Source: Candidatus Falkowiibacteriota bacterium
GTDB taxonomy: Bacteria; Patescibacteriota; Patescibacteriia; Patescibacteriales; UBA12465
NCBI GenBank assembly: GCA_009995495.1
Contig: JAACPL010000011.1
Span: 1-35,357 of the forward strand
Reading direction: 5' to 3'
Length of the DNA stretch: 35,357 bases
Shown: positions 4,259 through 32,432 of the stretch, piece after piece
Layout of the letters: every line of letters begins with the position of its first letter
How positions within the stretch are numbered: position 1 is the first letter of the stretch
The notes under the pieces: generated by a model
What the model saw: only the letters and a program-made list of their open reading frames with translations
Databases searched by the model: none
Told to the model about the DNA's origin: nothing
Translations under genes and position numbers: made by a program

Positions 4259-5287
4259 TTAAATTTTTAAATTTTCTTTATCTAAATATCTTTCGGTCCT
4301 ATTTACCACTTTTTTCAAAGTTCTAACAGCAATAAAAGGATGATCGCCAATCGTTGTTTCATCAGAAAGCATAACCATGTCACCACCATCTAAAACAGCA
4401 TTAGCGATATCACTAATTTCAGCCCGGGTTGGATGAGAATTTTTTATCATCGAAGTCATAATTTGAGTTGCAATAATTGCTGGCTTATCATGCCAATGAG
4501 CAAATTTAACTAAATACTTTTGTACAATCGGCAATTCCTCAATCGGAATTTCAATTCCTAAATCACCACGAGCAATCATAATAGCATCAGAGGCTTGAAT
4601 TATTTGGTCAATATTTCTTAAAGCAATCGCTCGTTCAATTTTAGAAATTAATTGCACTCCTTTTTTCTTAGAAATAAGCTTTCTTAATTTCTCCACATCA
4701 TCCCTTGTTTGAACAAAAGATAAAGCAACATAATCAACACCAGTTTTTAAACCAAATTTTACATCACGTATATCCTTTGGCATTAAACCACCTCGCTTCA
4801 TATTAGTATAAGGGACGTTAATACCCTTATGAGAAGTAAGAAGGCCACCGCGAACAACAGTTCCTTTAATAAAGCCTTTTTTAATTTCATTAACGATTAA
4901 TTCAATTTCACCATTAGCTAAATAGAGCGGTTCACCTTTTTTAATATCAAGATGGAGCTCAGAGTTATCAATAGGAATTATGCCTTTTTGATAAGTTCCG
5001 CCTTTTTTAAAAATAAAAGAATAACGCTCACCCTCTTCTAAGTTAATCCCCCCATCTGGCATATTGCCAACTCTAATTCTCGGCCCTTGAAGATCAAGCA
5101 TAATTTTTACTTGCTTCTTATTTTTTTTATTATAAAAATCAAGTATCTTTTTTACTCTAACATATTGTTCATAACTAGCGTGAGAAAAATTAATTCTTAT
5201 CATCTCAACCCCCTCATCTAAAAGGCGTTTTAAATCTTCTGGAGATTCAGTCTTGGGGCCAATAGTCGCAATAATCTTAGTGTTCAT
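4259..5287 (-). CDS. pyk: Pyruvate kinase, short form lacking the C-terminal domain
   Basis: Transfers phosphate from phosphoenolpyruvate to ADP. The N terminus (TKIIATIGPKTES), RINFSH, the central B domain and the Mg2+/PEP site ARGDLG are present. The protein stops at 342 residues, after the last part of the barrel (A) domain. Typical bacterial enzymes have about 470 residues, with a C domain that carries allosteric sites and tetramer contacts. The catalytic core therefore seems complete while classical allosteric control is probably absent. It lies between tgt (5 bases) and eno (9 bases). Confidence 0.93.
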   Translation of the reverse strand: MNTKIIATIGPKTESPEDLKRLLDEGVEMIRINFSHASYEQYVRVKKILDFYNKKNKKQVKIMLDLQGPRIRVGNMPDGGINLEEGERYSFIFKKGGTYQKGIIPIDNSELHLDIKKGEPLYLANGEIELIVNEIKKGFIKGTVVRGGLLTSHKGINVPYTNMKRGGLMPKDIRDVKFGLKTGVDYVALSFVQTRDDVEKLRKLISKKKGVQLISKIERAIALRNIDQIIQASDAIMIARGDLGIEIPIEELPIVQKYLVKFAHWHDKPAIIATQIMTSMIKNSHPTRAEISDIANAVLDGGDMVMLSDETTIGDHPFIAVRTLKKVVNRTERYLDKENLKI

Positions 5288-5292
5288 AGTTA

Positions 5293-6423
5293 TTATCTTA
5301 ATTTATTATTTTTCTTTTCTGCTCTTAACTCAGTCATCAATTTCTGATAAAACTCTAAGTTATTAAGAGCGGCTAATTTCTGTCCTAAAGGTTCTTTAAG
5401 TTGAAAAAGATGTTTCAAATAAGATCGTGAATGTGTTTTCAACGCCTTAATATTACTCCTCTTATTGATAGCTGTAAAATCTTGATTAAAAATTGCATTA
5501 CTAATATTAATAGAGCGCGTTTTAACTTTGATTAAAGATTGAGCCCCATCTAAAAAAAGTTTTCCATGACGACCTTCTCTGGTTGGAATAACACAATCAA
5601 ACATATCCCAACCGAGCTCGGCACAAATTTTTATATCCTCAGGACTACCAACGCCAAGCGCAAAACGAAGCGAGTTTTCTGGAATAAAACTGGCTGTTTT
5701 CTTTAAAATTTCTTTTAAAAATTTACCATTTTTATCAACATGTCTAGCGCCAAAACCGTAACCATCAAAACCGATTTTAACTAATTCTTTAGTACATTTT
5801 TCTCGTAAATCAAGTTCGGCTCCACCCTGTATTACCCCAAAAATTAATGGTTTTTTTAAGCCAACTAATTTTCTTTTTTTAATCTGATGTTCATATTCAA
5901 GCTTGCATCTTTTTGCCCAATTAATAGTTCTCTCAACCGCCTTTTCTAAGTCATGACGAGAAAATTCGTTTGGTGGACAATCATCAAGACAAACCATCAT
6001 ATCAACCCCTAAATCAAACTGAATTTGAATTGCTTTTTCTGGACTAAATTCATGACGCGAACCATTAAGCGGTGATTTAAAAACAACTTTATCATCATCA
6101 ATCTTGCCCATGGCTGAATTTTTATGGATTAAAGAAAAAACTTGAAAGCCGCCGGAATCAGATAATAAAGGACCATCCCAAGCCATAAATTTATGAACAC
6201 CACCAGCTTTTTTAATTGTTTCTAGTCCTGGCTGAAGATAAAGATGAAAAGTATTAACAACCATCGCTTTAGTTTTTGTCTCTAAAACTTCATCAGCCGA
6301 GCTTAATTTAATAAAAGCTCTGGTTGCATCAGGCATAAAAAATGGTGTCTTTAAAAGACCATGCCTTGTTTTTAAAAGCCCCAAACGACGCCCGTCTTTT
6401 TTTCTTGTAATTAATTTAAACAT
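5293..6423 (-). CDS. tgt: tRNA-guanine transglycosylase, zinc ligands missing
   Basis: Exchanges guanine 34 of GUN-anticodon tRNAs for preQ1 or queuine. The substrate-binding SDSGGFQVFSL segment and the nucleophile region FDCVIPTREGRHG are intact. In the C-terminal part, aligned by eye to E. coli Tgt through SRxYLxHL, the zinc ligands C302, C304, C307 and H333 become Ser, Ile, Leu and Asn (codons within 5362-5457). I chose the ATG at 6423 (MFKLITRKK); the frame stays open to a TTG at 6456, which would add 11 residues not typical of the family. It lies between a surface-protein gene and pyk in the same run. Confidence 0.9.
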   Translation of the reverse strand: MFKLITRKKDGRRLGLLKTRHGLLKTPFFMPDATRAFIKLSSADEVLETKTKAMVVNTFHLYLQPGLETIKKAGGVHKFMAWDGPLLSDSGGFQVFSLIHKNSAMGKIDDDKVVFKSPLNGSRHEFSPEKAIQIQFDLGVDMMVCLDDCPPNEFSRHDLEKAVERTINWAKRCKLEYEHQIKKRKLVGLKKPLIFGVIQGGAELDLREKCTKELVKIGFDGYGFGARHVDKNGKFLKEILKKTASFIPENSLRFALGVGSPEDIKICAELGWDMFDCVIPTREGRHGKLFLDGAQSLIKVKTRSINISNAIFNQDFTAINKRSNIKALKTHSRSYLKHLFQLKEPLGQKLAALNNLEFYQKLMTELRAEKKNNKLR

Positions 6424-6465
6424 TTTTATAATCAACTTTATTGAATTAAATTTCAACCATCATCC

Positions 6466-22854: not shown

Positions 22855-23883
22855 TTATAATTTTGTTTTAAAAACTTTTTTAATTTCATTCAAACTCTCC
22901 GCTTTAACTAAAGCTTCTCTTAGTTTTGCCGCCCCCTTAACCCCTCTTAAGTACCAACAAAGATTTTTTCTTAATTCATAAGTCGCTCGCTTCCCTTTTA
23001 ATTTATGCCCCAACTCAGCGTGTTCAAGTAATAATTTAAAAACCCCAGCCTTGCTTTTATTAATAATTTTATTGTTTTTGATTTCCTTAAAAAGCCAAGG
23101 GCGACCCAAAATTCCACGACCAAGACCTAAGCCATCAGCTTCACTCTCCTTAAGAGCTTTGTGGGCCTCCTCTAAATCATAAATTCCACCATTTGCAAGA
23201 ATTATTCCTTTAAAATATTTTCTCGCTTCTTTAATTGCTTTAAAATCAGCGGCGCCTACAAAACCTTGTTTTAAAGTTCGACCATGTATCATTAAAGCAG
23301 CGATTGGAAAATCAGAAATATTTTGTAAAAAATTTTTAAAATCTATTGAGCCACTTGCAAGTCTTATTTTAATAGAAACGGGCAAGTTTGTATTATCTAA
23401 AACGGCTTTAATAACTGCTTTAGAACGCTCTAAGTCTTTCATCAGACTGGCGCCAGCCCCTTGTTTAATTATTTTTGGTACTGGGCAACCAAAATTAATG
23501 TCAATCCCGTCAGGCTTAATTTTTTCAGTTATTATTTTTGTAGCAACGGCAAAATGCTCAGGGTTTGAGCCAAATATTTGAGCAACAAAATATTTTTCTT
23601 TTTTTCTATCAAAACGTAAAATATCTAAAGTTTTTTCACTTTCTAATCTGTCTCCTTTAGTTAATAATTTTCTGAGCGGATTTTTTTCTAAATAATAAAG
23701 AGCTGCGGTTGAAGCCATCTCGCTATATAAAACGTCAGCTCCGTTCTTCTTACAAATTTGACGAAAAGCAGCGTCAGAAAAACCGGCCATTGGCGCTAAG
23801 GCTAAAATTGGCCGGTCATGATTTTTTAACTTTTGCCAAAAATTATTTTTATTTTCTGTAAATTTTAAATTCATATTTTTCAT
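22855..23883 (-). CDS. dus: tRNA-dihydrouridine synthase
   Basis: Flavin enzyme that reduces uridines in tRNA D-loops. Hallmarks are LALAPMAGFSDAAFR near the N terminus, INFGCPVPKIIKQGAGASLM with the catalytic Cys, IHGRTLKQGF (FMN/RNA contact) and ILANGGIYDLEEA plus GLGLGRGILGRPWLF. It is DusB-like in general pattern. The frame is open to a TTG at 23910; I prefer the ATG at 23883 (an ATG at 23874 is also possible), giving about 342 residues. The start overlaps the end of cysS by 35 bases, so translation is probably coupled. Confidence 0.92.
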   Translation of the reverse strand: MKNMNLKFTENKNNFWQKLKNHDRPILALAPMAGFSDAAFRQICKKNGADVLYSEMASTAALYYLEKNPLRKLLTKGDRLESEKTLDILRFDRKKEKYFVAQIFGSNPEHFAVATKIITEKIKPDGIDINFGCPVPKIIKQGAGASLMKDLERSKAVIKAVLDNTNLPVSIKIRLASGSIDFKNFLQNISDFPIAALMIHGRTLKQGFVGAADFKAIKEARKYFKGIILANGGIYDLEEAHKALKESEADGLGLGRGILGRPWLFKEIKNNKIINKSKAGVFKLLLEHAELGHKLKGKRATYELRKNLCWYLRGVKGAAKLREALVKAESLNEIKKVFKTKL

Positions 23884-25264
23884 CTTTAACCATAAAGCCA
23901 GCCGCCTCAATTTCTAATCGTAAAGCATCGGCTTGAGCAAAATCTTTATTCTCGCGAGCAATTATTCTTAGCCTAACCTTTTCTTTTATTTCTTCAGTTA
24001 AATCGAACGAAGAAACTTCTTTTGCTTCATCATCAATTATAATATCCTCCAACTTTAAGCCCAAAACCTTATCAAAATCAACTAAGGTTTCATATTTTTC
24101 TGCTTCAATTATTTTAGCTTTAAAAACTGAATTAACAACTGCTAAAGCTTTTGGCATATTCAAATCGTCATTAAGCGCTTCTAAAAATTTATTTTTTAAG
24201 TCTTCATTAACTTTAGCCTCACCCTTAGTTTTATCAAGTTTAACAAATTGGCGTCTTAAACTATTTAAGCCCTCTTGAGCTTGCTTTAAAATTTCCTCGG
24301 AATATTCCATCGGCTTGCGATAATGGACTTGAAGAGCAGTGAAACGATAAGCCAACGGATCTAGGTTTTTATCAATTAAAGCCTTTTTGAGAGTCAAAAA
24401 ATTATCATCACTTTTTGCCATCTTTTTCCCGCCTGGAATATTTAAAAAAGCACCGTGAAGCCAATAATTAAAAAATTTATTACCGGTCGCTGCCTCACTC
24501 TGAGCAATTTCATTAGTATGATGAATATTAATATGGTCAGCGCCGCCACAATGAATATCTAAATTATTAGTTAGATGTTTTAAGCTAATAGCCGAGCATT
24601 CTATATGCCAACCAGGAAAACCTAGACCCCAAGGAGACTCCCATTCCATCTGCCTCTTTTTATCATGGCTCGAAAATTTCCAAAGAGCAAAATCTGTTGG
24701 GTTTTTTTTCTCATTATTCTTCTCTACCCGAGCTCCCTCTTTTAAATCTTCAAGCGGAAGATGGCTTAACTTATTATAATTAGGGAATTTAGAAGTATCA
24801 AAATAAAGACCATCGCTAGTCTGATAAACAAAACTTTTCTCTTCTAGAGTTTTAATTAAATTAATTTGTTCGGGAATATTATCGCTGACTTTTTCCCAAA
24901 CATCTGGCCTTAAAATATTTAATTTTTCTAAGTCAGCCTTGAAAGCGTCACTGTATTTTTTGGCAATTTCCCAAGCACTTTTTCCCTCTCTTTTTACTCC
25001 CGCCTCCATCTTATCCTCACCCATATCCATATCACCAATTAAATGACCAACATCAGTAATATTTTCTACATGAAAAACTTTATAATCATTATAAATCAAA
25101 ATACGTTTTAAAAAATCTTCAAACAAATAAGTTCTAAGATTACCAAGATGAGCAAAATTATAAACAGTTGGGCCGCAAGTATAGAGACCAACTTTCGGAG
25201 CAGAAATTGCTTGAAATTCTTCCTTCTTTTTACTTAAAGAATTATATAAATATAACTTACTCAT
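23849..25264 (-). CDS. cysS: Cysteinyl-tRNA synthetase
   Basis: Charges tRNA-Cys with cysteine. A 471-residue class I synthetase of normal length. The zinc site begins with the Cys in YTCGPTVYNF and continues in WHIECSAIS and GGADHINIHHTNE. The HIGH-type motif is AHLGNL and the KMSKS motif reads KMAKS (near residue 282). It lies 26 bases after a small membrane-protein gene, and its 3' end overlaps the dus start. Confidence 0.96.
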   Translation of the reverse strand: MSKLYLYNSLSKKKEEFQAISAPKVGLYTCGPTVYNFAHLGNLRTYLFEDFLKRILIYNDYKVFHVENITDVGHLIGDMDMGEDKMEAGVKREGKSAWEIAKKYSDAFKADLEKLNILRPDVWEKVSDNIPEQINLIKTLEEKSFVYQTSDGLYFDTSKFPNYNKLSHLPLEDLKEGARVEKNNEKKNPTDFALWKFSSHDKKRQMEWESPWGLGFPGWHIECSAISLKHLTNNLDIHCGGADHINIHHTNEIAQSEAATGNKFFNYWLHGAFLNIPGGKKMAKSDDNFLTLKKALIDKNLDPLAYRFTALQVHYRKPMEYSEEILKQAQEGLNSLRRQFVKLDKTKGEAKVNEDLKNKFLEALNDDLNMPKALAVVNSVFKAKIIEAEKYETLVDFDKVLGLKLEDIIIDDEAKEVSSFDLTEEIKEKVRLRIIARENKDFAQADALRLEIEAAGFMVKDEKYEFKIYRK

Positions 25265-27110: not shown

Positions 27111-28223
27111 TTATAACATAATTATCCCGCCACCCAAAACTTTTTGACCATCATAAAAAACCGCACTTTGACCAGGAGTAATAGCTCTTTGGGGGCGACT
27201 AAAAATAACTTTATAAGTATTGTTATTTTTAGTTAGTAGAACTTCACAATTAACTGCTTTATGCCCATATCTAATAATAACCTGGGCTTTAAAATTTTTC
27301 TTTGGCACCTTAGAACTCAACCAATTAACATCCTTAACTATAAATTCTCGCCCATAAAGAATTTTATCATTCCATTCTTTAACAACATACAAAATATTAT
27401 TCTTATAATCAAAGTCAGCGACATAAAATGGGCCGATGCCACCGACTAAACCACGTCTTTGTCCAATAGTATAAAGTGGAAGTCCGAGATGTTCACCAAT
27501 TTTTTCATCAGTCCCTAAAATTTTAATGTCACCCTTGTTTAATTTTAAATATTTTTTTAAAAAAATATTATGATCACCAGACAAAAAACAAATATCCTGA
27601 CTTTCTGCCTTAGCAGCAATTTTCAGGCCATATTTTTGGGCTAATTTTCTTACTTGTGGTTTTTTATAATTACCAAGAGGAAAAAGTAAGTGTTTTAATT
27701 CTTTTTGAGAAAGAGTGTAAAGAAAATATGTTTGATCTTTATTTTTATCCTTAGCTCTTAACAAAACCTGCTCCTTGCCTTGTTTTTCAATTTTTAAATA
27801 ATGTCCAGTTGCTAAATAATCAAAACCAAGAGCACGAGCTTGTTTTAATAAACGAGCAGTTTTAATTTGTTTATTACAAGTAACACAAGGATTTGGTGTT
27901 CTGCCAGCCTGGTATTCATTTAAAAAAGTATCAACAACTTTTTCCTTAAACTCAGTAGAGTAATCAAAAGTAAATAAAGGAATACCGATTTTCGCCGTCA
28001 CCGCTTTAGCGTCAAGTAATGATTCCAAAGAGCAACAACGATTTTCAACTCTTGAACCAAGACCGGGTGACTCATCTTTCCAAAAATGTAAAAAAACTCC
28101 AGCAACTTCATATCCCTGATCTTTTAATAAACAGGCGGCAACACTTGAATCAACCCCGCCAGACATCGCTACTAAAACTTTTTTTGATGTAGGTTTTTTA
28201 ATTTGACTATTTAAATTTTTCAT
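27111..28223 (-). CDS. mnmA: tRNA-specific 2-thiouridylase MnmA
   Basis: Thiolates U34 of tRNA-Lys, -Glu and -Gln using ATP and a sulfur relay. A 370-residue protein with the PP-loop VAMSGGVDSSVAACLL near residue 20, the catalytic Cys in NPCVTCN (near 111), the second catalytic Cys in SQDICFL (near 211), and the TIGQRRGL segment. Length is standard. It is the last gene of the glycan operon, 30 bases after a GT4 gene, with no functional link to that pathway that I can see. The plus-strand ORF at 27261-27449 is a shadow. Confidence 0.96.
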   Translation of the reverse strand: MKNLNSQIKKPTSKKVLVAMSGGVDSSVAACLLKDQGYEVAGVFLHFWKDESPGLGSRVENRCCSLESLLDAKAVTAKIGIPLFTFDYSTEFKEKVVDTFLNEYQAGRTPNPCVTCNKQIKTARLLKQARALGFDYLATGHYLKIEKQGKEQVLLRAKDKNKDQTYFLYTLSQKELKHLLFPLGNYKKPQVRKLAQKYGLKIAAKAESQDICFLSGDHNIFLKKYLKLNKGDIKILGTDEKIGEHLGLPLYTIGQRRGLVGGIGPFYVADFDYKNNILYVVKEWNDKILYGREFIVKDVNWLSSKVPKKNFKAQVIIRYGHKAVNCEVLLTKNNNTYKVIFSRPQRAITPGQSAVFYDGQKVLGGGIIML

Positions 28224-32040: not shown

Positions 32041-32064
32041 ATAAAGTTAATTTGTATTTTGCTA

Positions 32065-32432
32065 TTTCGGGGCAGCTATAAGCCGGATTCTGTTTTAGCG
32101 ATCATTTATCTAAGACTAGTTGTTACCAACTAGTTCAAGCGAGCTACTTTTTCTTATCTTAAAAAGATAAGTTTGCTCTTGCTTCAGATAGGGTTTACCA
32201 CGACTCTCCGTCACCGGAGGCCGAAAAAAGTAGCTTAAGAGTTGCCCCTTAAACACCTAATTTCTTTTCACCTTTCATTTATCAAAAGATAAACTAGTAT
32301 TGTCTCTGTGGCACTTTCCCTAATCCGCCGGAACGGATTGGTGGGCATTACCCACTATCTTTTCACGAAGTCCGGACTTTCCTCTCCTTTCAATTTAAAT
32401 CAAAAGGAGCGATCGCCCGCTCACCCCTAACA
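32065..32432 (-). ncRNA. rnpB: RNase P RNA, bacterial type A, reduced P15 region
   Basis: Catalytic RNA that trims the 5' leader from tRNA precursors. The 5' conserved segment GAGGAAAGTCCGGACTTC (about 32368-32385) and the 3' segment ACAGAATCCGGCTTAT (about 32079-32094) form the P4 core. GGGGTGAGC (32419-32427) pairs with the 3' end GCTGCCCC to make P1. Ends are estimated from P1. The P15-P17 region, where E. coli has a loop with GGU that binds the tRNA CCA end, is here only a simple hairpin (32153-32160 with 32164-32171) with a UUU loop, so the GGU is absent. Confidence 0.93.

Follow-up and report, generated by a model that had tools for sequence, protein, structure and literature searches.

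The bacterial tRNA-guanine transglycosylase (Tgt) homologue encoded in the window, as we call the whole stretch of 35,357 nucleotides analysed here, carries none of the four ligands of the Tgt zinc site, and we consider it quite probable that it is a functional Tgt whose C-terminal subdomain folds without zinc, the metal clamp having given way to side-chain packing. The gene (tgt) occupies an open frame on the minus strand (5293..6456) that encodes a 387-residue protein, with the ATG of codon 12 (6423), at which homologues begin, as the likely start. The match to bacterial Tgt spans the whole length: the protein scores 345.8 bits against the bacterial-Tgt equivalog model TIGR00430 (cut-off 306.75), matches PF01702 with an E-value of 8e-104 and is the single TGT-family copy in the genome. 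The catalytic motifs SDSGGFQ (6142..6162, minus strand), with the catalytic Asp corresponding to E. coli D89, and FDCVIPTR (5578..5601, minus strand), with the nucleophile Asp corresponding to D264, are intact, as the sequence-only reading had stated; D143 and Q187 (E. coli numbering) are likewise present, and all four residues are invariant in the four groups counted. Compared with the Tgts of Z. mobilis and E. coli, the window's protein is alike in its full-length (β/α)8 fold, these catalytic residues and a TIGR00430 score above the cut-off, but differs in the absence of zinc ligands, in a base-pocket loop reading GARHVDK in place of GGLAVGE and in an insert of about ten residues ahead of the former zinc loop. 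It is best described as a bacterial Tgt variant that has the sequence, fold and catalytic features of the family without its zinc ligands or the classical motif of the pocket.

TGTs are described as having two structural hallmarks, one of which is a zinc-binding domain with three Cys and one His (PMC6165067). In the window's Tgt, the counterparts of E. coli C302, C304, C307 and H333 are Ser334, Ile336, Leu339 and Asn365. The former zinc subdomain lies on the minus strand at 5362..5457, coordinates that run exactly from the Ser codon at the C302 position (5455-5457) through the Ile (5449-5451) and Leu (5440-5442) codons to the Asn codon at the H333 position (5362-5364). The region aligns without gaps to Z. 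mobilis TGT using phmmer, and aligning it to about 220 relatives with MAFFT placed the ligand columns identically. Residue numbering follows the E. coli Tgt sequence; the Z. mobilis alignment independently agrees with it. The last Cys of the protein is at codon 288 (FDC288VIPTR) and the C-terminal subdomain contains no substitute Cys, therefore no alternative Cys3-His set exists, a shifted alignment cannot restore the site, and we rejected nearby alternative ligands. A frameshift or assembly error was likewise rejected, the frame being open throughout and the same residues occurring in relatives from independent genomes. The earlier claim that all four ligands are gone is thus borne out to the exact residue, and neither of the two things that had been named as able to overturn it, a corrected alignment or a frameshift, was found, given the ungapped alignment, the open frame and the TIGR00430 score.

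We searched genomes with PF01702 at three levels, the window's order, class and phylum, and in one species-wide scan, which returned almost only Patescibacteria, and extracted about 250 Tgt proteins; these samples were partly picked by score, and the counts that follow are not frequencies for the phylum. Among the sampled Tgts of the window's order, replacement by Ser, an aliphatic residue, Leu and Asn is nearly universal, with one exception that retains CCCH (L021). In 64 zinc-less relatives that are at most 80% identical, Ser stands for C302 in all 64, Leu for C307 in 63 and Asn for H333 in 61, which excludes chance replacement. In the window's class, the full ligand set is missing in about half of the Tgt proteins read. 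Other lineages show differing losses (TQLN, N-LN, GGLV, ATLA, TGLH, FSHH and NCSH), and still others occur elsewhere in the phylum (ICSH, VHSH, L-GN, SSSQ, SILQ and LSSQ); the Cys loop is deleted in the L255 and L244 Tgts, and the site is nearly emptied in L242. The check that had been proposed, an alignment across Patescibacteria looking for consistent absence in a clade, accordingly gave a positive answer, and judged from these sequences the loss is real: it spans a clade, recurs, and removes a hallmark metal site from an enzyme that is conserved in other respects. A literature search, with most subscription journals outside its coverage, returned no report of a zinc-less Tgt. Annotation rules that assume a Tgt zinc site fail in Patescibacteria, and recurrent natural loss within one phylum offers a ready series, from substitution to loop deletion, for probing the role of the metal in fold, tRNA binding and dimerisation. 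Two further observations concern tgt elsewhere: a record labelled Planctomycetota (L046) carries a Falkowbacteria-type zinc-less Tgt, probably from a mislabelled or contaminated bin, and in another genome (L152; G057:C18:45567-46287) an additional tgt copy, degraded into fragments and interrupted by stops, lies near an intact tgt.

In known TGTs, zinc ties the three-Cys loop to the His-bearing helix, and mutating the zinc ligands of the E. coli enzyme damages it; compensation must therefore exist in zinc-less Tgts. We propose that ordinary packing would replace the zinc tie, with the space filled by aliphatic side chains where C304 and C307 would stand and Ser (C302 position) and Asn (H333 position) probably forming a polar contact, and that catalysis, the exchange at G34 via the D264 covalent intermediate, would be unchanged. 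Most simply, the recurrent and varied losses would mean that the clamp became dispensable once the loop packed by side chains, through contacts that are themselves putative. This account starts from direct observations, namely ligand absence, conservation, repeated state change, purifying selection and a fold predicted with confidence. From these we infer that the window's Tgt is active, binds no metal and makes such packing contacts, with the proviso that missing ligands prove neither Tgt activity nor the absence of metal bound elsewhere.

An AlphaFold2 model of the window's Tgt (70 sequences in the alignment) reached a pLDDT of 94.5 and a pTM of 0.92, with block means of 91-98 across the ex-zinc segment, although a family fold can score such high confidence regardless of metal. 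The model superposes on Z. mobilis TGT (1q2r and 1ozm) with a Z-score of 48 and an rmsd of 1.6-1.7 Å over 350-351 residues, and it is predicted to contain the (β/α)8 barrel and the TGT C-terminal subdomain. Pairwise dN/dS among zinc-less Tgts ranged from 0.03 to 0.25 for pairs of relatives with unsaturated dS, the window's own sequence being too diverged for this comparison. Together, the conserved replacement, purifying selection and the confident TGT-fold model support the earlier suggestion of a fold that would be stable without zinc. We give hardly any credence to the idea that the protein is a decaying, non-catalytic relic or an accessory tRNA-binding subunit: downstream queuosine genes are apparently lost in the window's genome and in two others (G084 and G085), which would suit it, but the catalytic residues are intact, relatives are under strong purifying selection, and the single TGT-family copy has no QTRT1/QTRT2-like partner in the window's genome. 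A changed dimer interface had also been suggested. The Z. mobilis TGT homodimer has an aromatic hot spot formed by F92, W326, Y330 and H333 (PMC5395182); three of these four residues are common to the window's Tgt, the counterparts of F92, Y330 and H333 being identical and only W326 being replaced, by His, so that the sequence gives no indication of such a change.

Low zinc had been offered as a possible driver of the loss. In the same genome, RpoC keeps its zinc cysteines (CAC...CDKC, pattern CxC...CxxC), as does RecR (CQDC...CRIC, pattern CxxC...CxxC), and CysRS, encoded by cysS at 23849..25264 on the minus strand, contains YTCGPT, HIECSA and HHTNE, the motifs of its retained catalytic zinc ligands, and served as a within-genome control for zinc supply. 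Because these three proteins keep their ligands, a zinc-free or zinc-poor cell seems unlikely, and adaptation to low zinc finds no support. Organism-level zinc sparing under scarcity would be in keeping with repeated loss of the Tgt site within a single phylum whose members have small genomes and are presumed to depend on hosts, but with the ligands kept in all three other zinc proteins compared, we regard it as very unlikely. We favour the view that loss of the metal would be a recurrent, tolerated simplification in Patescibacteria and not a response to a zinc-free cell.

Overlooked by the sequence-only reading, the base pocket is altered as well: the loop at 5731..5757 (minus strand) reads GFGARHVDK for E. 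coli AVGGLAVGE, such that GGLAVGE (E. coli 213-219) corresponds to GARHVDK. In Z. mobilis numbering, G230, L231, A232, G234 and E235 are changed and V233 is kept; the switch peptide of Z. mobilis TGT, Leu231-Ala232, falls within this stretch. The window's clade shares the loop GAR[PH][VI]D, without conservation of the switch residue Glu235, and 63 of 63 non-redundant Tgts of this GAR type have Leu at the position of Z. mobilis M260 (E. coli M244). Z. mobilis TGT accommodates either preQ1 or guanine through a switch built from a loop peptide bond and Glu235 (PMC3660597), and the window's Tgt lacks this preQ1 pocket loop, GGLAVGE with its Glu235 switch. Queuine-inserting TGTs typically carry GG[LS][AS]G at the pocket (PMC11570991); this Chlamydia-type motif is absent too, the window having GARHV with the equivalent of the queuine-blocking Val233 kept. 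Further pocket variants (GGWP, GGSF and GGES) occur in several other Patescibacteria Tgts.

Zinc loss together with a change of substrate, with the protein remodelled as a whole for a base other than preQ1 such as queuine or a differently substituted 7-deazaguanine, would account for the new loop, the lost Glu235 and the M260 replacement. The two changes are separable, since either can be present alone: GGLSVGE is combined with S-x-L-N in 22 non-redundant proteins of the order, and 21 proteins, mostly from Moranbacteria, combine a GAR pocket with intact CCCH. For queuine in particular, the typical GG[LS][AS]G stands against the Val233 kept here. We therefore judge a joint change unlikely, and the earlier suggestion of a changed substrate may draw some plausibility from the altered pocket, but the pocket change is separable from zinc loss. 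Two groups frame the comparison with the zinc-independent Tgt that we prefer. The zinc-containing GAR Tgts (mostly Moranbacteria; among them L060, L064 and L071) have the same pocket type and the closest core outside the zinc-less group, but retain CCCH and carry Pro or Val at pocket Cys145 (Z. mobilis C158), a Cys kept in the window. The zinc-less GGL Tgts of the same order (L002-L026) show the same S-x-L-x-x-L...N replacement, but have the classical GGLSVGE pocket and a catalytic core from another branch.

On a tree of 133 Tgt proteins built with the zinc columns excluded, zinc state requires at least 15 changes by parsimony, of which at least 9 are forced by well-supported branches; shuffled labels gave 38 changes, compared with the 15 observed. 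Since CCCH is common to E. coli and the solved TGTs and the zinc-less forms differ from one another, the natural reading of these sequences is repeated loss of the site in Patescibacteria, the direction not being proven by change counts. In an early tree, the Moranbacteria Tgts with zinc ligands had branched from within the zinc-less GAR group, which suggested zinc regain; a constrained tree was 29 log units better, and regain is therefore not needed.

The zinc-less GAR Tgts of the window's type share their catalytic core with the zinc-containing, mostly Moranbacteria, GAR Tgts, and the S-x-L-x-x-L...N that they have in common with the zinc-less GGL group may have arisen by convergence or be left over from an exchange of the C-terminal part. 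It is possible, though we hold this only tentatively, that the window's type arose by recombination of a GAR core from a zinc-containing lineage with the order's resident zinc-free C-terminal subdomain and not by losing zinc independently a second time. A clade made up of zinc-less GAR and zinc-less GGL Tgts is rejected when the N-terminal part is analysed (AU p 0.0002, and 1.8e-10 in a second run), and the C-terminal part favours that clade by 13 log units. On the other hand, the C-terminal part is short, at 85 columns, and fails to reject an all-GAR tree (AU p 0.22; this value and 1.8e-10 come from a run with 5000 resamples only), which leaves convergence equally open. Recombination would concern origin only and is compatible with a functional Tgt folding without zinc.

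Of the order's 111 genomes, 94 have a QueA match, and the gene is kept by most of those in the window's genus and family that share its pocket. QueA acts on preQ1-tRNA, and its retention by most relatives with a GAR pocket argues for preQ1 as the base and against a change of substrate; most of these relatives look like preQ1 salvagers with QueA, as far as gene content indicates. The window's genome (94.9% complete) has no match to QueA or QueH, nor do G084 and G085; QueF is absent from 39 of 39 genomes of the family and QueG from 16 of 16 of the genus, and YhhQ, found in 9 of the 39 family genomes, has no match in the window's genome, which looks Tgt-only as to the queuosine genes searched. 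The missing QueA, QueH, QueF, QueG and YhhQ matches speak for another substrate, and one could imagine that, in host-dependent bacteria stripped of their other queuosine genes, a zinc-independent Tgt with a remodelled pocket places some base different from preQ1 into tRNA, a scenario we think improbable. A tie between pocket change and QueA loss was rejected, as G084, G085 and G079, which lack QueA and QueH, keep the ordinary GARP[VI]D of QueA-containing relatives. With this pocket variant and most queuosine genes apparently absent from the window's genome, the identity of the base at position 34 in these bacteria becomes a testable question.

The Tgt-only salvagers Chlamydia, Bartonella and Pelagibacter have been discussed together with the QPTR/YhhQ transporter (PMC11570991). 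The window's genome appears to resemble them in having tgt without QueA, QueG and QueH, but YhhQ was not found here and the pocket motif is neither GG[LS][AS]G nor GGLAVG. Our search of the same literature for papers on queuosine in Patescibacteria found none, the one match joining queuosine and the candidate phyla radiation being concerned with DPANN archaea. QueC was set aside, as matches in the genus were mostly weak and that of the window lies inside an MnmA-like gene (27111-28223). No preQ1 riboswitch was detected in the window at gathering score; the only RNA match was an RNase P class A RNA gene (RF00010, 199 bits) at 32064-32428 on the minus strand. Adjoining tgt is a pyruvate-kinase-like gene (4259-5287) that is short (342 aa), its usual C-terminal region seemingly missing. 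At L226:436-2028, QueH, a member of the epoxyqueuosine reductase family, appears to be fused at the C-terminal end of a protein of about 530 residues, the N-terminal portion of which resembles a WecA/MraY-type membrane glycosyl-phosphotransferase; judged by frame length (516-549 residues in family genomes, with L226 as the one read), this fusion seems to recur across genera.
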